The position numbers were made by a program, and so were the translations under genes. Under the pieces are notes generated by a model. That model had not been told where the DNA came from and did no database searches. It saw only the letters and a list, made by a program, of their open reading frames with translations. DNA of 64,000 nt. Source: Flavobacterium azooxidireducens (GTDB taxonomy: Bacteria > Bacteroidota > Bacteroidia > Flavobacteriales > Flavobacteriaceae). Below are positions 10,731-58,390 of the stretch, one piece after another; position 1 is the first letter of the stretch, and each line of letters opens with the position of its first letter. Location of the stretch: NCBI RefSeq assembly GCF_023195775.1, contig NZ_CP096205.1, positions 1,364,001 through 1,428,000 on the forward strand, read 5' to 3'.

Positions 10731-12077
10731 ATGAAAAAATTCTTCAAATTTCTTGGTATTGCTATTTTATTGTTCATCATTTATATTGGAATAACAACCT
10801 ATCCAAAATTGGATATTGTTTCCGGTTTTTCAGCAAAAAGTGTGGCTTCCGGTCATTTTATTGATGGACGATCGCTCCAAATTATTGAAAGTGGTGATAA
10901 TGATATAGAAACTGTACGATTAGCTAAAAACGAAATTGATGATGAAGGAAAATTTGCTGTTTCTTCCGCTTTTGGATTGAAAAAAAGAAAAGCCATTTAC
11001 CGAGAAGGTTTGGGTGCCACTTTGATAAATGATGATTTTGATGAAACAAAACCGTATTTGGTTCCGAAACGAACAAAAGTTGAAACGAATTTACCTTTTC
11101 CGTATGGAAATTTAGAACCAAAAGATTCAATTTTTCCGGAAGTGAATTATATGAAACTAAATACTGCTGTTGCAAATGCATTTGATAGTAAAGGCGAAAT
11201 AAACAAGCGAACAAGAGCTCTTTTAGTGATTTATAAAGATAAAATCATTGCTGAGAATTACGAAATTGGCTTTTCTAAAAATACTAAATTCTTAGGTTGG
11301 TCGATGACAAAAAGTATCACGGCAACTTATTTTGGAATTTTACAAAAGCAAGGCAAAATTGACATTAATAAACCTGCTCCAGTGAAAGAATGGGCAAATG
11401 ATTCTCGATCGAAAATTACGTTGCATAATTTGATTCAAATGAATTCCGGTTTGGAATGGGAAGAAGATTATGGGAAAATATCGGATGTAACGAAAATGCT
11501 TTTTTTAGCGGATGATATGGCGAAAATTCAATTGGAAAAACCGGCTACTTTTGCACCGAATACACATTGGAATTATTCTTCGGGAACAACGAATTTGCTG
11601 TCGGGAATTTTGCGAAGACAATTTCAAAATCATCAGGATTATTTGAATTTTTGGTATGCTTCGTTGATTGATAAAATCGGCATGCATTCGATGTTGATTG
11701 AACCGGATATGGCAGGGAATTATGTAGGTTCTTCGTATGGATGGGCAACGGCTCGTGATTGGGCGAAATTTGGTTTGCTTTATTTGCACGAAGGCAATTG
11801 GAATGGTGAGCAACTATTTGATAAAAGTTGGGCGAAGTATGTGGCGACTCCTACACCCACTTCTAACGGAGAATATGGTGGACATTTTTGGTTAAATGCC
11901 GGTGGAAAATATCCTGATGTTCCGAAAGATATGTATTTCTGCGGCGGATTTCAAGGTCAGAAAGTGATTATTATTCCTTCCAAAGAATTGGTGATTGTTC
12001 GGTTTGGTTTGACGGAAGATGAGGATTTTGATTTTAATGGGATGATGAGGGGAATAATTTCAAGTTTAAAAAAGTAA
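10731..12077 (+). CDS. Beta-lactamase-family serine hydrolase
   Basis: 448 residues with an N-terminal membrane anchor (residues 5-22, FLGIAILLFIIYIGITTY). The serine hydrolase fold (class C beta-lactamase or PBP-like) begins near residue 140. The catalytic SxxK is in GWSMTKSITATYFG. A Tyr-containing second motif is in HWNYSSGTTNLLSG, and GGFQGQKVIIIP stands in for the KTG region. It probably acts in the periplasm on peptides, esters or cell-wall fragments; the substrate cannot be read from sequence. Divergent from sufS. Confidence 0.85.
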   Translation: MKKFFKFLGIAILLFIIYIGITTYPKLDIVSGFSAKSVASGHFIDGRSLQIIESGDNDIETVRLAKNEIDDEGKFAVSSAFGLKKRKAIYREGLGATLINDDFDETKPYLVPKRTKVETNLPFPYGNLEPKDSIFPEVNYMKLNTAVANAFDSKGEINKRTRALLVIYKDKIIAENYEIGFSKNTKFLGWSMTKSITATYFGILQKQGKIDINKPAPVKEWANDSRSKITLHNLIQMNSGLEWEEDYGKISDVTKMLFLADDMAKIQLEKPATFAPNTHWNYSSGTTNLLSGILRRQFQNHQDYLNFWYASLIDKIGMHSMLIEPDMAGNYVGSSYGWATARDWAKFGLLYLHEGNWNGEQLFDKSWAKYVATPTPTSNGEYGGHFWLNAGGKYPDVPKDMYFCGGFQGQKVIIIPSKELVIVRFGLTEDEDFDFNGMMRGIISSLKK

Positions 12078-12134: not shown

Positions 12135-12653
12135 ATGGTTTTTAACAAAAATATTGTTTTTATTGGAGGAATTCACGGAGTCGGAAAAGGTACAATTTGT
12201 AAAGAAATTTCAAACGAATCTGGACTAACCCATCTTACAGCAAGTCAAGTTTTAAAATGGAATGAAATTAGTAAATCTGATAATAAATTAGTTGATAATA
12301 TTTCTACGACGCAAGAAAGATTGATTTTAGGCTTAAAAAATCTTATTGAAAAAGATAAACAATATTTACTTGATGGACATTTTTGTTTGTTGAATTCAAA
12401 AGGAATTCCAAGTAAAATTGAAGAGGAAACATTTGACTATATTAATCCAAGAATTGTTGCAATCGTAATTGATGATGTTGAAAAAGTTGCAGAAAGATTG
12501 GAAAAAAGAGATAAAAGAAAATATGATTCTAAAATCTTAAATGAATTGCAAGAAATGGAAATTGAGTATGCAAAGTATCTTTCAAACAAATATTCTGTTC
12601 CATATATTGAAATATGGAATAGTAATTATAAAAGCCTTTTAAACATTATTTAA
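12135..12653 (+). CDS. Adenylate-kinase-like P-loop NTPase of the PIN/ASCH module
   Basis: 172 residues. Walker A is GGIHGVGKGT (residues 11-20) and a Walker B-like strand is YLLDGHFCLLN. An Arg/Lys-rich lid-like stretch (RLEKRDKRKYD) follows VAIVIDD. This is the nucleotide or small-molecule kinase branch of P-loop proteins (AAA_18/AAA_33-like); the substrate is unknown. The stop overlaps the next start by one base (TAATG), so the two are surely co-translated. The three-gene unit is visibly more AT-rich than the flanking core genes, suggesting transfer. Confidence 0.75.
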   Translation: MVFNKNIVFIGGIHGVGKGTICKEISNESGLTHLTASQVLKWNEISKSDNKLVDNISTTQERLILGLKNLIEKDKQYLLDGHFCLLNSKGIPSKIEEETFDYINPRIVAIVIDDVEKVAERLEKRDKRKYDSKILNELQEMEIEYAKYLSNKYSVPYIEIWNSNYKSLLNII

Positions 12654-14173
12654 TGATGAAAATTTTACTCGACACAAACATTATTATTCACCGAGAAGCG
12701 AATAAAATTTATAAGCCTGAAATTGGTCAACTTTTCAAATGGATTGATAACCTTAAATACTCCAAATATATTCATCCATTAACGGTTAAAGAGTTAGAAA
12801 AGTATAAAGATAAAAATGCTCTTGACACAATGAGCATTAAAATTGAGAGTTATAATTTACTAAAGCATCAAGCTCCTTTTAGCGAAAAAATGTTAGAAGT
12901 TATATCTCAAGTAGATGGAAATGATAACGATATTATTGACTCGCAGATATTAAACGAAGTTTATGAAGGTAGAGTTGATATTTTAATTTCTGAAGATAAA
13001 AAAATTCACACTAAAGCAAATTTACTTGGGATAGGTAATCGGGTTTTTAAAATTCAAAGTTTTTTAGAAAAAGTAATTTCGGAAAACCCTGATTTAGTTA
13101 ATTACAAAGTTCTTGCTGTTAAAAAAGTTGATTTTGCTGAAGTAAATATTAAAGACGAGTTTTTTGATAGTTTCAGATTAGATTATGGAGAATTCGACAG
13201 TTGGTTTAACGGTAAATCCGAAGAGCCCTGTTATGTATGTTATAGCGATGGAAATTTGACAGCTTTTCTTTTTGTCAAAATTGAAAACGAAAATGAAAAC
13301 TACTCTAATATAAATCCTGTTTTTCAACCAAAAAAAAGATTGAAAATAGGAACTTTAAAGGTTACTGGAAATGGATATAAAATTGGAGAAAGGTTTTTAA
13401 AAACAATTTTTGATAATGCAATCCAATTTAAAGTCAAAAAAATATATGTTACACTTTTTACGAAAAGACCTGAACAAGAGCAGTTAGTAGAAATGTTAGA
13501 AGAATGGGGATTTATTTATTATGGATTAAAAACAACAAAAAACGGAGAAGAAAAAGTTTATATTAGACCTTTTAGTAGAGAAACCCCCGTTAATTTAGAG
13601 AATCCAAAACTTACATTTCCCTTTTTATCAAGAAAAACAGACAAATATATTATTAAAATTGAGCCTCAATATCATACTGAGCTTTTTCCAGATAGTATAA
13701 ATACTAGAGAAGATATTCAGAAATATACTGAAAATGAGCCGCATAGAAATAGAATTGGTAAAGTATATATATCGCATTCTCAAGATAGAAATTTAAAATC
13801 TGGGGATCTTTTGATAATTTATCGAATGGGTGAAACATCACCAAAAAAATATTCAAGTACTGTTACAACAATTTGTATTGTAGAAAATGTACAAAATAAC
13901 TTTAGCTCCTTTGAAGATTTTTTTAATGCTTGTAAAAGAAGAACTATGATTTCAAAAGAAGATTTAAAAACAAATTGGTGGGATAAAAATCCAAAGAACA
14001 GACCATTTGTTGTAAATTTTTTATATGCTCATTCGTTACCAACACCAAAACCCACTCTTGATGATTTAAATAGATTAGGGATAATTCCAGATATATTAAA
14101 TATGCCGAGAGGATTTATTAAAATAACGAATGAACAGTTTAATGTTTTGATTAAATTTGCCTATAAATTATAA
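12653..14173 (+). CDS. PIN nuclease - GNAT - PUA-like (ASCH/EVE-type) fusion
   Basis: 506 residues in three parts. Residues 1-145 are a PIN domain with the acidic set D7 (LLDTN), E47 (TVKELEKY), D96 (NDIIDSQI) and D115 (LISEDKKIH), so likely an active metal-dependent RNase. Residues about 165-310 are GNAT-like, with an acetyl-CoA loop (GNGYKIGERFL), LKIGTLKV before it and a final WGFIYYGLK. Residues about 330-506 resemble PUA-fold ASCH/EVE proteins (RIGKVYISHSQDR, SGDLLIIYRMG, TTICIVENV). It is followed after 3 nt by a stand-alone ASCH gene. An RNA-cleaving or RNA-modifying stress or defence effector is inferred. PIN is confident, GNAT moderate, PUA-like moderate. Confidence 0.8.
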   Translation: MMKILLDTNIIIHREANKIYKPEIGQLFKWIDNLKYSKYIHPLTVKELEKYKDKNALDTMSIKIESYNLLKHQAPFSEKMLEVISQVDGNDNDIIDSQILNEVYEGRVDILISEDKKIHTKANLLGIGNRVFKIQSFLEKVISENPDLVNYKVLAVKKVDFAEVNIKDEFFDSFRLDYGEFDSWFNGKSEEPCYVCYSDGNLTAFLFVKIENENENYSNINPVFQPKKRLKIGTLKVTGNGYKIGERFLKTIFDNAIQFKVKKIYVTLFTKRPEQEQLVEMLEEWGFIYYGLKTTKNGEEKVYIRPFSRETPVNLENPKLTFPFLSRKTDKYIIKIEPQYHTELFPDSINTREDIQKYTENEPHRNRIGKVYISHSQDRNLKSGDLLIIYRMGETSPKKYSSTVTTICIVENVQNNFSSFEDFFNACKRRTMISKEDLKTNWWDKNPKNRPFVVNFLYAHSLPTPKPTLDDLNRLGIIPDILNMPRGFIKITNEQFNVLIKFAYKL

Positions 14174-14176
14174 AAT

Positions 14177-14557
14177 ATGAAAGTAGTACTATCAATAAAG
14201 CCCCAATTTGCAAATAAGATTTTTGATGGGACAAAGAAATTTGAATTCAGAAAAGCTATTTTCAAAAACCAAAATGTTACTTCGGTTTTAGTTTATGCTT
14301 CTTCACCTGTGCAAAAAGTAATTGGAGAATTTGAAATTGGAGAAATTTTCAATTTTGACTTAAAAACTCTTTGGGATAAAACTAAAGAACACTCAGGTAT
14401 AACAGAAGATTACTTTTATGAATATTTTGCTGACAGAAAAAATGGTTTTGCAATTCAGATTAAGAATAAAAAAAGATTTGAAAACCCAAAATGTTTAAAG
14501 GCAGATTATAATTTAACTCCTCCTCAATCATTTTCTTACTGGAATTCAAAAGAATAA
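14177..14557 (+). CDS. ASCH domain protein
   Basis: 126 residues, essentially one ASCH (PUA-like) domain: VLSIKPQFANKIFDGTKKFEFRK, VLVYASSPVQKVIGEFEIG and a C-terminal LTPPQSFSYW. ASCH proteins are suspected RNA or modified-nucleoside binders, and some are hydrolases. It starts 3 nt after the PIN-GNAT fusion and closes the operon. It may act as reader or antitoxin-like partner of the fusion protein; this is inference. Confidence 0.85.
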   Translation: MKVVLSIKPQFANKIFDGTKKFEFRKAIFKNQNVTSVLVYASSPVQKVIGEFEIGEIFNFDLKTLWDKTKEHSGITEDYFYEYFADRKNGFAIQIKNKKRFENPKCLKADYNLTPPQSFSYWNSKE

Positions 14558-26521: not shown

Positions 26522-27559
26522 ATGATTAAAACAGATAAAAATATACTTTCAAATTATAACTTTATCGACCTATTTGCAGGAATAGGAGGATTTCATTTGG
26601 CTTTAAAATCATTTGGTGCTAATTGTGTTTTTGCCTCTGAATGGGACAAATTTGCATCAACAACTTACTATGAAAACTTCGGAATAAAGCCTCTTGGAGA
26701 CATCACTAAAATCAATGAAAGTGAAATTCCTACCCATGATATTCTTTGTGGTGGTTTTCCTTGTCAAGCCTTTTCAATTTCTGGAAAACAAAAAGGTTTT
26801 GAAGATACAAGAGGAACATTGTTTTTTGATATAGCAAGAATTGTAAACCATCACAAACCAAAAGTTCTTTTTTTAGAGAATGTAAAAAACTTAGTCAAGC
26901 ACGAAAATGGGAAGACATTAGAAATTATTACTAACATTCTGAAAGAATTAGATTATGAGGTTTTTACCAAAGTATTGAACTCCAGTAATTTTGGACTACC
27001 TCAAAACCGTGAGAGATTGTACATAATTGCCTTTCATAAATCAATAGATTCAAGCAAATTTAGTTTTCCTTCACCAACTAACGAACCAATTTGTTTAGGT
27101 AAAATTCTCGAAAATCAACCTGAAAATGCCAAAGTTATTGATAGAGATGATATTGAAATTTATAAAAATTATACTGTTTCAAGCAACTTGTTTTCAGATA
27201 TACAATTGCTCAACAAACCTATACAGATAGGAAAAGTTAACAAAGGTGGACAAGGAGAAAGAATTTACCATCCATTAGGTCATGCAATTACGCTTTCTGC
27301 ACATGGAGGTGGAGTGGGTTCAAAAACAGGATTGTATCTCATTAATGATAAAATACGAAAATTATCACCAAGAGAATGTGCAAGAGTACAAGGTTTTCCA
27401 GAGAGTTTTATTTTAAATTCATCAGACACACAAACGTATAAACAATTTGGAAATAGTGTTTCTGTTAATGTTTTACAACATATCCTATTCGAGATTGCAA
27501 AAGTTTTGAACGCAAACAGTAAAAATTTAATCCAAACAACTAAGTTAGAATATGCATAA
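26522..27559 (+). CDS. DNA cytosine-5 methyltransferase, HhaI/HinP1I type (GCGC)
   Basis: 345 residues with all m5C motifs: I FIDLFAGIGGF, IV GGFPCQAFS with catalytic Cys 81, VI FLENVKNL, VIII QNRERLYII and X QFGNSVSVNVLQH. The target-recognition region GGQGERIYHPLGHAITLSAH followed by GGGVGSKTG closely resembles M.HhaI as I remember it. It should therefore modify the inner cytosine of GCGC. The gene overlaps the endonuclease gene by 8 nt. Cytoplasmic; protects host DNA from its partner. Low GC content suggests acquisition. Confidence 0.95.
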   Translation: MIKTDKNILSNYNFIDLFAGIGGFHLALKSFGANCVFASEWDKFASTTYYENFGIKPLGDITKINESEIPTHDILCGGFPCQAFSISGKQKGFEDTRGTLFFDIARIVNHHKPKVLFLENVKNLVKHENGKTLEIITNILKELDYEVFTKVLNSSNFGLPQNRERLYIIAFHKSIDSSKFSFPSPTNEPICLGKILENQPENAKVIDRDDIEIYKNYTVSSNLFSDIQLLNKPIQIGKVNKGGQGERIYHPLGHAITLSAHGGGVGSKTGLYLINDKIRKLSPRECARVQGFPESFILNSSDTQTYKQFGNSVSVNVLQHILFEIAKVLNANSKNLIQTTKLEYA

Positions 27560-28298
27560 AGAGCAATTATTAGGTTCGCAAACAGCAAAAAACGGATTTT
27601 TAAATGAAGATAATATTGTAATCAAATTTAATAATTGGGAATTCGATGAAGAAGCTCAGAAATGGCTTTTAATCATGCAATATGAACTCAACCAAATTGA
27701 ATTTAAAGCACTTAAATTAAGTGGTTTTAAAACAGACGTTCAAGTTCAGGTAACAATTAAATTGAAAGAAGCTATTGATGCCCAAAATTTACAAGTAAAG
27801 CTTGTAAGTAATACAAGAGGGTTTAATCAAATTGATAAAAGGTGGGTTGATAAATATATTGAAATGTGGAATATTCCTCAAAACATAGCTTCAATTCTTA
27901 AACGTTATACAGGTGAAGTTGAACCTAGTGTTACAAATTCTAAAGACAAAAGAAGAATGTTCTTTCATGAATTTACTACAGAAGAACAGAGTAATGTCTT
28001 AAAATGGTTAAAAGAAAATAAATCGCTTATTGTTTCAGATATTTTAAAAGGCAGAGGACAATTTTCTGCTGAATGGATGCTTGTTGCCCAAAAACTTAAA
28101 CAAAATTCCAGATGGATTTTAAAACCTATGAATTTTTGTTTAAATCATTTTGGAAATGGTGAAGTTGAAGTCACAAAAAGAGGTAATTTTAAAATTGGAA
28201 GGATAACGATGCAGCGAAAAGGAGGAGATGGTGGAAGAAAAACAGCAAATATGCTTCAATTTAAAATTAATCCCGCAGAACTTTTTGATTGTGAATAA
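27552..28298 (+). CDS. Type II restriction endonuclease, HinP1I-like (GCGC)
   Basis: 248 residues, nearly the length of R.HinP1I (about 247). Shared stretches recalled from HinP1I include LGSQTAKNGFLNE, SNTRGFNQIDKRWV, NSKDKRRMFFHEF, ILKGRGQFSAEWMLVAQK and ITMQRKGGDGGRKTANMLQF. The active-site residues fall at D62, Q81 and K83 (TDVQVQ, QVKLVS), the same positions reported for HinP1I. It should cut unmethylated GCGC. Translation is coupled to the methyltransferase by an 8-nt overlap, so the methylase is made first. Confidence 0.93.
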   Translation: MHKEQLLGSQTAKNGFLNEDNIVIKFNNWEFDEEAQKWLLIMQYELNQIEFKALKLSGFKTDVQVQVTIKLKEAIDAQNLQVKLVSNTRGFNQIDKRWVDKYIEMWNIPQNIASILKRYTGEVEPSVTNSKDKRRMFFHEFTTEEQSNVLKWLKENKSLIVSDILKGRGQFSAEWMLVAQKLKQNSRWILKPMNFCLNHFGNGEVEVTKRGNFKIGRITMQRKGGDGGRKTANMLQFKINPAELFDCE

Positions 28299-44991: not shown

Positions 44992-46308
44992 CTACAAATC
45001 AAACCCCAAATTCACACCCAGTTTCATCGCAATAATTTTCGTGATGCGTTGTTTGAGTTCAGGTATTTTGATGCTTTCGATCACTTCGTTGGAAAATGCA
45101 TACAGCAATAACGCTTTGGCTTCTTTTTTAGGAATTCCGCGTTGTTGCATATAGAACATCGCACTTTCGTCTAATTGACCAATGGTGCAACCGTGTGAAC
45201 ATTTGACATCATCGGCAAAAATTTCCAATTGTGGTTTGGCGTTGATGGTGGCTTTATCGCTTAATAAAATGTTGTTATTTTGTTGAAAAGCATCTGTTTT
45301 TTGGGCTTCTTTTTCCACGAAAATCTTTCCGTTGAAAACGCCGGTGGAACTTCCACCTAGGATGGTTTTATAGTTTTGATGGCTTTCGCAATTGGGCGTG
45401 GCATGATTTACTAAGGTGTAATGATCCACGTGTTGCTTGTCGCCAATAATCGTGATTCCTTTTAAAGTTGAATCGATTCGTTCACCAAAATGATAGAAAT
45501 TCAGGTTGTTTCGGGTGATATTTCCACCAAAAGAAAACGTGTGAACCGCTACTCTACTCTCTTGTTTTTGAGAAATATAAGTGTTGTCAATTAAGTTGGC
45601 GGTTTGTTCGTCGTTTTGAATTTTATAATAATCGACAATCGCTCTTTTTTGAGCAAAAATTTCGGTTACCGAATTGGTCAACACCGGATTACTGTTCAAA
45701 CTTTGATGACGTTCGATGATTTGCACGTGAGCATTTTCACCTACAATAATCAAATTTCGAGGTTGTACCATTAACGCACTTTCAACTCCGGTAGAGAAAT
45801 GAATGATTTCAATTGGTTTATCAGCCACTTTACTTTTCGGGATGTTGATGAACGCTCCTTCCTGTGCAAAAGCAGTATTTAAAGTTGTTAAACTCTCGTC
45901 TTTACTAGCGATTTGGTTAAAATAGGTGTCCAAAACCATTTTGTATTTTGGCTTTGTCAGCACCGAAGAAAGTAAGCAAACGTCAATTCCTTCGTGCGTT
46001 GTTGACGACATAAACGAACTGAATTTTCCATCGATAAACACTAATTTGTAGGTGTCAATTTCGTGTAGAAAAAATTTCTTGACATCTTTAAATTCAATTG
46101 AATTTTCTCTTTTTGGGAAAACAGAAAAGTCGTTTTTTAGTACGGTATTTAATGATGTATATTTCCAAGCTTCCTCTTTTTTGGTTGGGAAACCTTTGTT
46201 TTCAAAGTTTTTGATGGCAGAAGTTCGAATGTCGTGTAACTCGGCGGTTACATCGATTCGTTCTTCAAAGGCCATGAAGGATGATACTAATTTTTCTTTT
46301 AAATCCAT
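44992..46308 (-). CDS. sufD: Fe-S assembly protein SufD
   Basis: 438 residues. SUF scaffold subunit paralogous to SufB: NKGFPTKKEEAWKYTSL, GENAHVQIIERHQS, HFGERIDSTLKG, DDVKCSHGCTIGQLDESAMFYMQQRGI. Builds clusters with SufB and SufC. Last gene of the proximal suf block; in related genomes sufS follows directly, but here it is 34 kb away. Confidence 0.97.
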   Translation of the reverse strand: MDLKEKLVSSFMAFEERIDVTAELHDIRTSAIKNFENKGFPTKKEEAWKYTSLNTVLKNDFSVFPKRENSIEFKDVKKFFLHEIDTYKLVFIDGKFSSFMSSTTHEGIDVCLLSSVLTKPKYKMVLDTYFNQIASKDESLTTLNTAFAQEGAFINIPKSKVADKPIEIIHFSTGVESALMVQPRNLIIVGENAHVQIIERHQSLNSNPVLTNSVTEIFAQKRAIVDYYKIQNDEQTANLIDNTYISQKQESRVAVHTFSFGGNITRNNLNFYHFGERIDSTLKGITIIGDKQHVDHYTLVNHATPNCESHQNYKTILGGSSTGVFNGKIFVEKEAQKTDAFQQNNNILLSDKATINAKPQLEIFADDVKCSHGCTIGQLDESAMFYMQQRGIPKKEAKALLLYAFSNEVIESIKIPELKQRITKIIAMKLGVNLGFDL

Positions 46309-49679: not shown

Positions 49680-49940
49680 ATGCAAAAAAATGATAAACCA
49701 AACATTCCAGCGTTCCTTCTTTGGGAATATGATCTAAAAACATTTAACTACGACAAATCGTATAAAATTGTTATTGAACGTGTTTTACAATTGGGTACTA
49801 TCAATGATTGGAAAGAGATGATACGGTTTTATCCTAAAGAAAAAATTTTGGAAACCATTGAATGGTCTGCTCAGCTTGATAAAAGAGATAAGGATTTTAG
49901 TCTTTTTTTCTTAAAATCTGATATGCTTTATGCTGTGTAA
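49680..49940 (+). CDS. DUF6922-like partner of the AbiEii protein
   Basis: 86 residues: IPAFLLWEYDLKTFNYDKSYKIVIERVLQLGTINDWKEM. Small Bacteroidota family found ahead of AbiEii nucleotidyltransferases, probably the antitoxin-like partner (analogous to AbiEi). It overlaps the next gene by 11 nt. Confidence 0.8.
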   Translation: MQKNDKPNIPAFLLWEYDLKTFNYDKSYKIVIERVLQLGTINDWKEMIRFYPKEKILETIEWSAQLDKRDKDFSLFFLKSDMLYAV

Positions 49941-50562
49941 GGATCCTTTTATCATTCATCCTGAAACTTTCAATTTGATTCAGGAACTTCAATCGCTTGA
50001 TTATCTCAAAGATTTTTATTTAGTTGGCGGAACGGCATTAGCATTAAAACTTGGCCATCGAAATTCAATTGACATTGATTTATTCACTCAAGACGAATTT
50101 AATGACAATGAACTTTTAGAAAATCTTCTACATTTATTTGATTTAAAATTAGTTTATAATCGTAAAAACACTATTGTCTGCTCAATAAATGAAATAAAAA
50201 CTGATTTTATTCGGCACAATTATCCACTAATTAATGAGCCTATTTCTGAAGAGGGAATTACATATCTTTCCTTGGAAGATATTTGTGCTATGAAACTACA
50301 CGCGATACAAAATTCAGGGAAACGTCTTAAAGATTTTATAGATATTTATTTTTTACTTGAGCATTTTTCATTGAATCAAATGTTGGGATTTTATGAAATA
50401 AAATACAAACATTCTAATAAATTAATTGCCTTAAGAGCTATTAATTATTTTGAAGATATTGACCCTAGTATAGACCCTCCTGTTCTTAAAAAACCGATTT
50501 CAATAGTAAAAATTCAAAAAAGAATACAGCAAGCAACATTACACGGAAACAAAAAATTTTAA
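49930..50562 (+). CDS. AbiEii/AbiGii-type nucleotidyltransferase toxin
   Basis: 210 residues. Nucleotidyltransferase core LVGGTALALKLGHRNSIDIDLF (GG...DxD), later LSLEDICAMKLHAIQNSGKRLKDFIDIYFLLEHF. Members of this superfamily add nucleotides to tRNA or other targets and cause growth arrest in phage-exclusion systems. Paired with the overlapping small upstream gene. Confidence 0.88.
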   Translation: MLCKDPFIIHPETFNLIQELQSLDYLKDFYLVGGTALALKLGHRNSIDIDLFTQDEFNDNELLENLLHLFDLKLVYNRKNTIVCSINEIKTDFIRHNYPLINEPISEEGITYLSLEDICAMKLHAIQNSGKRLKDFIDIYFLLEHFSLNQMLGFYEIKYKHSNKLIALRAINYFEDIDPSIDPPVLKKPISIVKIQKRIQQATLHGNKKF

Positions 50563-57080: not shown

Positions 57081-58202
57081 CTAGCAGGATGATACGGTGT
57101 CAATAACATGGTCAGAAATAATTACTTTGTCTGCAATTAATTCTTCTACCAACATTACTTCAAAAGTTTCTACTTTTTCAATATATTCAGGAATTACATG
57201 AATTTCAATTTTTCCATTTGTATTGAAATCACGAGCAAGTAATTCCCATTCAACTGTTATTATATTTATTTCATGTTTTGGAAGTATAGAAACATCAAAA
57301 ATTCTATAATCTTTCTGAATTAATGGTTCATTTTTGAGAGGATAATATGTTAGTGATTTTTTATCATCTGAAACATAAACTTTTCTCAAATTTAAAGGGG
57401 TTGACGTCGAATGAATACTTTCGAATTCATCGAAAATATGCCTTATACCATCAATAAATTTTAATTTAAATTTCCAATCTTCAATCACTTTTTTACCGGA
57501 GTTTTCAAGGTTGATTTCAAAATCGCACCAAGATTTATTTACTTTACTTGGGAAATGAATTTTTCTTATTAAATCCCAATGCGAAATTGGAGTAAAGGAT
57601 TTTTTTTCTAATTTACTAAGGATAAATTCATGTTGGCTTTTTTTAGTTAAAATGTATTTAGTTATATTTTTTTCGAAGATAGGTTTAAGTGTTAATTCTT
57701 TTTGAAAATCATTAAACGATATTGTGAAATCAAATTTATCTTTTTGCCCTATACCACTTAAGTACCAATTATATACATCATTATATTCTTCAAGCAAATC
57801 GACAATATCTTCCCAACAAAAAAGATGTATTTCCATACCATTTTTTCGACTCTCAAAATCTTTTATTCTGACATATTCTTCAATTTTAGCATCTTTATTA
57901 GCTGTTGTTGCAATAATGTAAGTTTCCAATTTAGGTTTAAAATTTTTTGCATTGTCAATCTCTTTGTCAATTTCTGCTTTCGTTAATTTGGCGTTTGTAT
58001 AGTCATCTTTCCCTTTACATTGTATTCCCCAATAATTATTTTTGTTTTTGGGGATTCCATAAACATCTACTCCTGCTTGTTCTTGACCTAATCTTCCATT
58101 CTTTTTTATAGAGCTGGAAATATCCCATACTTCACCCCATAGTTTTTTACAGAGTAATTCAAAATCTTGCCAGTTTTCGGGTTTCCCTACTGTTTTTTTC
58201 AT
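57081..58202 (-). CDS. Restriction-endonuclease-like (PD-(D/E)XK) protein with C-terminal unknown domain
   Basis: 373 residues from ATG 58202 (MKKTVGKPENWQDFELLCKK). The N-terminal 150 residues have the nuclease fold: GQEQAGVDVYGIPK (Asp), YWGIQCKGKDD (QxK), then LTKAEIDKEIDNAKNFKPKLETYIIATTANKD. The same N-terminal domain occurs fused to STAND ATPases in antiphage systems; here it is followed instead by about 220 residues of beta-rich sequence I do not recognise. Possibly a stand-alone nucleic-acid-cleaving defence protein. AT-rich, next to a strange repeat array. Confidence 0.75.
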   Translation of the reverse strand: MKKTVGKPENWQDFELLCKKLWGEVWDISSSIKKNGRLGQEQAGVDVYGIPKNKNNYWGIQCKGKDDYTNAKLTKAEIDKEIDNAKNFKPKLETYIIATTANKDAKIEEYVRIKDFESRKNGMEIHLFCWEDIVDLLEEYNDVYNWYLSGIGQKDKFDFTISFNDFQKELTLKPIFEKNITKYILTKKSQHEFILSKLEKKSFTPISHWDLIRKIHFPSKVNKSWCDFEINLENSGKKVIEDWKFKLKFIDGIRHIFDEFESIHSTSTPLNLRKVYVSDDKKSLTYYPLKNEPLIQKDYRIFDVSILPKHEINIITVEWELLARDFNTNGKIEIHVIPEYIEKVETFEVMLVEELIADKVIISDHVIDTVSSC

Positions 58203-58390
58203 ACTAAATGTGTGCAAATGGTGAATAGTCTTTCAAATATTTTGTTACAAATATTTACCGCTATTTATAATTATATCCTTGATTGAATTATTTTTAATTC
58301 CCCACCAAATTACAAAAAAAATTAACACTTTAACAATTCCAAACCAAATTCCCCCAATCCACCCATCCAAAACCCCATTTCCCTACCCAA
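58203..58390. other. AT-rich intergenic leader of the repeat array
   Basis: No gene. AT-rich with C-rich patches (ACCCATCCAAAACCCC), grading into the repeat array. Confidence 0.5.

Follow-up and report, generated by a model that had tools for sequence, protein, structure and literature searches.

A PIN-GNAT-EVE/ASCH module of probable toxin-antitoxin type in Flavobacterium, with an apparently interchangeable EVE domain

What would an operon do that combines a kinase-like protein, a fusion of PIN, GNAT and EVE-like domains, and a stand-alone ASCH protein? The question is raised by three adjacent genes of Flavobacterium azooxidireducens, found in a 64,000-nucleotide (nt) stretch of contig NZ_CP096205.1 (positions 1,364,001 to 1,428,000; here called the window). 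The original prediction, made from the sequence, was of a possible new RNA-targeting system, toxin-like or antiphage. The genes at 12135-14557 are confirmed as intact, tightly packed and AT-rich, and with their domains and operon structure the toxin-like or antiphage guess stands as a candidate reading. The interpretation favoured here, held with somewhat better than even confidence, is of a toxin-antitoxin-type module, probably antiphage, with an interchangeable EVE recognition domain. Its parts, all on the + strand, are:

12135..12653, +: adenylate-kinase-like P-loop protein (AAA_17), putative accessory kinase, 172 residues (Pfam AAA_17, E 2.2e-18)
12653..14173, +: PIN-GNAT-EVE-like fusion, presumed toxin/effector, 506 residues (PADLOC PDC-M11A, E 5.1e-209)
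12653..13072, +: PIN nuclease domain, residues ~1-140 of the fusion (PIN_4, E 0.0094, below the cut-off; conserved acids)
13148..13567, +: GNAT acetyltransferase domain, residues ~166-305 of the fusion
13628..14170, +: EVE/PUA-like domain, residues ~326-506 of the fusion; apparently the exchanged domain
14177..14557, +: stand-alone ASCH protein, presumed antitoxin/immunity partner, 126 residues (PADLOC PDC-M11B, E 7.7e-53)

The suggestion of a new, unnamed system is not supported: the module is already catalogued, in print and in PADLOC, as a candidate defence or toxin-antitoxin set. Both components of the PADLOC candidate defence system PDC-M11 are matched, PDC-M11A by the fusion (over residues 2-504) and PDC-M11B by the protein 3 nt downstream of it; the window differs in having a kinase, which no M11 model matches (its best PADLOC match is VakA, E 1.4e-6). 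The text of Bell et al. (2020; PMC7641849) presents PIN-GNAT-EVE fusions with ASCH, often also with AAA_17, as predicted toxin-antitoxin systems, uncharacterised at that time, and places PIN-GNAT-EVE loci near type I restriction-modification genes and PIN-less forms in prophages. With the (PIN)-GNAT-EVE operons of these authors and of Iyer et al. (2013) the window shares the domain order of the fusion, the ASCH partner and the AAA_17 protein. A search for the relevant terms in the main text of Bell et al. (2020) brought up no mention of an ASCH-kinase fusion, a membrane accessory or EVE domains exchanged at a fixed site. Among the papers listed in the literature searches, theirs was the only one to deal with this family. 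By similar searches, PMC10853773 concerns other systems, and PMC12988326 uses PDC but does not contain M11.

The pair has also been given names. In the record of Escherichia phage PhiR47_2 (PV340567.1), the labels “GevT toxin” and “GevA antitoxin” are given to a PIN-less fusion and to the ASCH protein next to it. Gene order is as in the window, with 35.8% identity over the GNAT-EVE part and 44% for ASCH; unlike GevT, the window fusion has a PIN domain with four acids, and the 9 kb of phage DNA examined yielded no kinase. Of 5426 complete E. coli genomes, 274 carry DNA nearly identical to the lambdoid GevT/GevA pair.

Do the three genes belong together? A lack of conservation had been raised as a possible refutation, but they do co-occur elsewhere. 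Two sets of loci were compared, both picked via the fusion gene: the best 80 of 490 confirmed genome loci, matched to a PIN-bearing query (all fusions 489-535 residues), and the best 80 of 128 viral loci, from an alignment-based scan of viral contigs. A scan of the same contigs with a single protein yielded no relatives. In 73/80 genome loci ASCH follows the fusion at a distance of no more than 110 nt, and 78 have it somewhere in the locus; a membrane-protein gene separates the two in the five remaining ASCH-bearing loci, and both loci without ASCH (L060 and L078) terminate at contig ends. The kinase is immediately upstream of the fusion in 37/80 and somewhere in the locus in 40/80. In the viral set ASCH is found in 80/80 and the kinase in 11/80, while PIN is absent from 78/80.

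Because both sets had been picked via the fusion gene, single genes were also searched separately in 249 Flavobacterium genomes (kinase cut-off E≤1e-8). The fusion had matches in 15; those in G084 and G203 were short and partial and were left out, so that 13 remain. The kinase is restricted to fusion genomes in this sample, occurring in 11 of the 13 and in none of the 236 without a fusion. ASCH is in the same 13 plus G063 and G234; the G234 copy, which adjoins a SufD-like gene, is a relic with an in-frame stop in a genome where neither fusion nor kinase was found. Among phage records, ASCH accompanies the fusion in 16/16, but the fusion is detectable in 16 of 26 ASCH-bearing records and was undetected in 10 (fewer of these are independent: eight of the 16 fusion-bearing ones are Escherichia records of equal score, and several accessions duplicate one another between GenBank and RefSeq). 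ASCH thus occurs without the fusion, the reverse hardly ever.

More widely, the fusion family comprises 4492 proteins at E≤0.001 among 7998 candidates scored, and a phylum-wide sample has the fusion in 12 of 395 genomes. Gene order varies: Rhizobium etli has a helix-turn-helix (HTH)-ASCH gene, fusion and kinase, Mesorhizobium has ASCH, fusion and a separate kinase, and an archaeal prophage has the fusion followed by ASCH. The PIN-bearing form is also on some phage and plasmid records (psiM100, rhizobial plasmids). In psiM100 (L239) the PIN-GNAT-EVE gene is mostly within a segment annotated as an inserted fragment, which starts in a three-copy run of 125-bp repeats; phage psiM2 retains the ASCH gene, with no fusion detected.

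The chromosomal setting in Flavobacterium bears on which part of the module varies. It usually sits between beta-lactamase-like and SufD-like genes, the first of these forming the upstream edge of the insertion site, outside the module:

10731..12077, +: beta-lactamase-like gene (Pfam PF00144, E 6.8e-27)

(The names SufS, SufB, SufC, SufD, GpsA and HsdS were assigned by eye, without a family search.) In the genus loci examined, this gene adjoins a SufS-like gene. Eight of the 13 fusion genomes have the module next to the beta-lactamase-like gene, one has it next to SufS without that gene, and four have neither within the 1.5 kb examined. Among 16 named site loci, all have the beta-lactamase-like gene, though that of L059 is broken, and 13 are followed by SufD. 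In 20 module-less genomes, taken from the top of the flanking-gene list and not at random, the SufD end lies within ~320 nt in 13 and other genes occupy the site in seven. Two of these seven carry alternative Fic cassettes there; PADLOC PDC-M59A/B is matched by one, and the second consists of an HTH-Fic pair:

L230:4726-6182: Fic cassette
L234:5192-6273: Fic cassette

In the window itself the SufD-like gene (44992-46308) is ~30 kb from the module, with a rearrangement downstream of the module (14558-46308). The corresponding gene of L028, a locus with a 99% identical fusion, comes within ~0.3 kb after ASCH.

Three EVE classes (I, Ib and II) are found at this one site. Domain trees were made for the window plus the 16 site loci (15 rows for ASCH) against the other sampled rows. 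Site rows form a single clade in the trees of PIN, kinase and ASCH, with supports of 85, 95 (starred) and 94, and both GNAT halves are compatible with one (p 0.49 and 0.61). A single clade is rejected by the EVE part (log-likelihood difference 145.8, p-AU 2.6e-6), a value that is not blind, since the group was set by chromosomal site after the identities were known and five other parts were tested besides EVE. Starred branches of the EVE tree force at least three changes; the trees are of a quick kind, with several long branches. Identities follow the same pattern: EVE classes I and II share a mean of 45%, against 88-90% within classes, whereas PIN is 88% identical between EVE classes and 87-91% within them. 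The nearest off-site relatives of the class II EVE are L069 (66%) and L066, L070, L096, and L073 (62%). ASCH of the 15 site loci is 84-99% identical to the window copy, spanning all EVE classes. This suggests that EVE was exchanged at a fixed site, with kinase, PIN, GNAT, and ASCH compatible with one lineage. On the plainest reading, the EVE end, partly with a membrane gene, would have been replaced by recombination while the same ASCH stayed in service; ASCH would therefore not depend on EVE class.

For a toxin-antitoxin module, these features could be assembled as follows. The PIN-GNAT-EVE fusion would be the toxin. Its C-terminal EVE-like domain would recognise RNA, probably modified and most likely a tRNA or an RNA of phage origin; the bound RNA would then be inactivated by the PIN nuclease, the GNAT acetyltransferase or both. 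As cognate antitoxin or immunity partner, ASCH would target not EVE but either the conserved PIN-GNAT portion or the RNA. The adenylate-kinase-like protein would be an optional accessory working with ASCH. EVE would be an interchangeable specificity unit that recombination has swapped, leaving the other parts of the operon in place. The RNA target, acetylation, toxicity, neutralisation and any antiphage effect are inferred.

The predicted structure of the fusion has a mean confidence score (pLDDT) of 86.9, and the doubt first attached to the middle domain is settled in favour of GNAT. The PIN acids D7, E47, D96, and D115 are present, and are conserved in 49-50 of 50 aligned rows. PIN_3 is matched by 35 of 80 members; a structure search listed no PIN structure among 50 matches, the listing being filled by GNAT and ASCH rows. 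Among phage families, the fusion matches two of unknown function, phrog_6345 (E 4.6e-79) and phrog_10674 (E 8.5e-63). In fold, both the ASCH partner and the EVE part resemble ZmASCH of Zymomonas mobilis. Paralogy of the two was considered and rejected: their hhalign match is colinear but non-significant (probability 1.6%, score 19.4, against 19.2 for a PIN and 13.2 for a GNAT control).

Kinase and ASCH are also found joined. In L025-L027 of the phylum sample, a single ASCH-kinase protein is encoded directly after the PIN-GNAT-EVE gene, and in a search with this protein 75 of the 95 proteins listed match along at least 88% of its length. Such natural fusions argue that the kinase cooperates with ASCH. 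The LDGH and RD motifs of the kinase are invariant in 51/51 distinct homologues from the loci.

ASCH itself is homologous to ZmASCH, of solved structure (5gus/5guq; E 3.5e-11), which is reported to cleave single-stranded RNA in a magnesium-dependent manner, with Tyr47, Lys53, and Ser128 aiding binding and cleavage (PMC5615036). The description of EVE and ASCH as two readers of modified RNA is accordingly unproven. Among 123 distinct ASCH homologues from the loci, the equivalent of Tyr47 is kept in 123 and that of Ser128 in 122, while at the Lys53 position Gln (56) and Gly (50) prevail over Ser (12) and Lys (4). The RNA-binding cleft is therefore probably retained, while nuclease activity is uncertain. 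A role as an N4-acetylcytidine amidohydrolase like YqfB was also considered and dropped, as what we take to be the nucleophile position is an invariant Glu (E23, 123/123).

Some loci have an optional fourth member, absent from the window module, that belongs to an unnamed family of membrane proteins. Proteins of this family (~280-380 residues if complete, with membrane helices at the C-terminus as judged by eye) are encoded no more than 640 nt from the fusion, and in the same direction, in 21 loci: 12/80 genome loci, 7/80 viral loci, and L009 and L010, which are duplicates of L060 and L062. Examples are:

L061:9496-10428: membrane-family gene beside the fusion
L094:6311-7375: membrane-family gene beside the fusion
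L114:4826-5965: membrane-family gene beside the fusion

Pfam gave nothing better than E 0.085 for four members, NCBIfam no match for three, and PADLOC none for one; 222 homologues were found, and among the 120 listed none has a Pfam domain. The family is in two of the 249 Flavobacterium genomes, both fusion-bearing, with its gene beside the fusion. It lies between fusion and ASCH in four of seven class II loci and also in L069 and L096, but not in L066, L070, or L073. Relics were sought in the 97-103 nt fusion-ASCH gaps of L058, L059, and L063; the short matches were mostly to the start of ASCH, and none is claimed.

Much more tentatively, EVE could be likened to HsdS, as an exchangeable target-recognition domain swapped to track phage RNA or tRNA modifications. 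One ASCH would then serve all EVE classes, the kinase would gate ASCH with nucleotide, and the membrane partner, coming with one EVE class, would add a membrane-directed arm.

Several observations weigh against a toxin-antitoxin interpretation. Chief among them is the RNA cleavage reported for ZmASCH, which would fit an antitoxin poorly. The names GevT toxin and GevA antitoxin are depositor's labels only, and in the literature searched, with incomplete coverage, no experimental work on the PIN-GNAT-EVE/ASCH family was found. No kinase was found in 40 of the 80 PIN-type genome loci, within the DNA examined. The classical acetyl-CoA loop of GNAT proteins begins with Gly, while in the fusion homologues this position is mostly Lys, Arg, or Leu; acetylation by this domain is thus uncertain, and PIN may be the main effector. 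The immediate neighbours of the window copy appear by eye to be of housekeeping type, with no defence island. The clade supports of PIN and ASCH are under the program's strong mark, and the sampled sequences are related to one another, not independent.

What else might the operon do? One suggestion, made in Bell et al. (2020; PMC7641849) with respect to acetylated, modified tRNAs, is of a counter-counter-measure: phage GNAT-EVE proteins would acetylate aminoacyl-tRNAs, which host PIN-GNAT-EVE proteins would find via EVE and degrade. The general absence of PIN from the viral loci would fit, though the genome loci, having been chosen via a PIN-bearing query, are uninformative on PIN frequency. 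GNAT core residues are equally conserved in PIN-bearing and PIN-less rows, however, both forms share the same kind of ASCH partner, not obviously needed by a pure clean-up nuclease, and the PIN form is itself on some phage and plasmid records; we consider this account improbable.

Of about the same low probability is a nucleic-acid modification module, a reading that follows Iyer et al. (2013) as relayed by Bell et al. (PMC7641849). GNAT would acetylate a DNA or RNA base, EVE and ASCH would read the product, the kinase would supply or recycle nucleotide, and PIN would remove wrongly modified RNA. PIN family nucleases act on RNA, the kinase is missing from half of the genome loci as examined, and the neighbours at the Flavobacterium site are beta-lactamase-like and suf-like genes, all of which count against it. 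An ordinary cellular RNA-processing or quality-control operon is very improbable: all of the domains are also known from RNA metabolism and the suf-like flanking genes are housekeeping, but the module is patchy (13/249 Flavobacterium and 12/395 phylum-wide genomes) and AT-rich, its site holds alternative cassettes, and it has relatives in phages and plasmids.

The window has other defence-type genes. At 26522-28298, a C5 cytosine methyltransferase and an R.HinP1I-type restriction endonuclease make up a complete-looking type II restriction-modification pair; at 49930-50562, an AbiEii-type nucleotidyltransferase (Pfam E 4.8e-17) adjoins a SufB-like gene; and at 57081-58217 there is an Mrr_cat_2 restriction-endonuclease-like protein of 378 residues.

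The family is widespread, yet no published mechanism was found for it in the literature searched. If it is a toxin-antitoxin module with an exchangeable EVE domain, the Flavobacterium site series, with closely related PIN, kinase, and ASCH parts and three EVE classes, would offer a natural comparison for the target of EVE and for neutralisation by ASCH, and the kinase-ASCH link and the membrane accessory would be concrete candidate partners.
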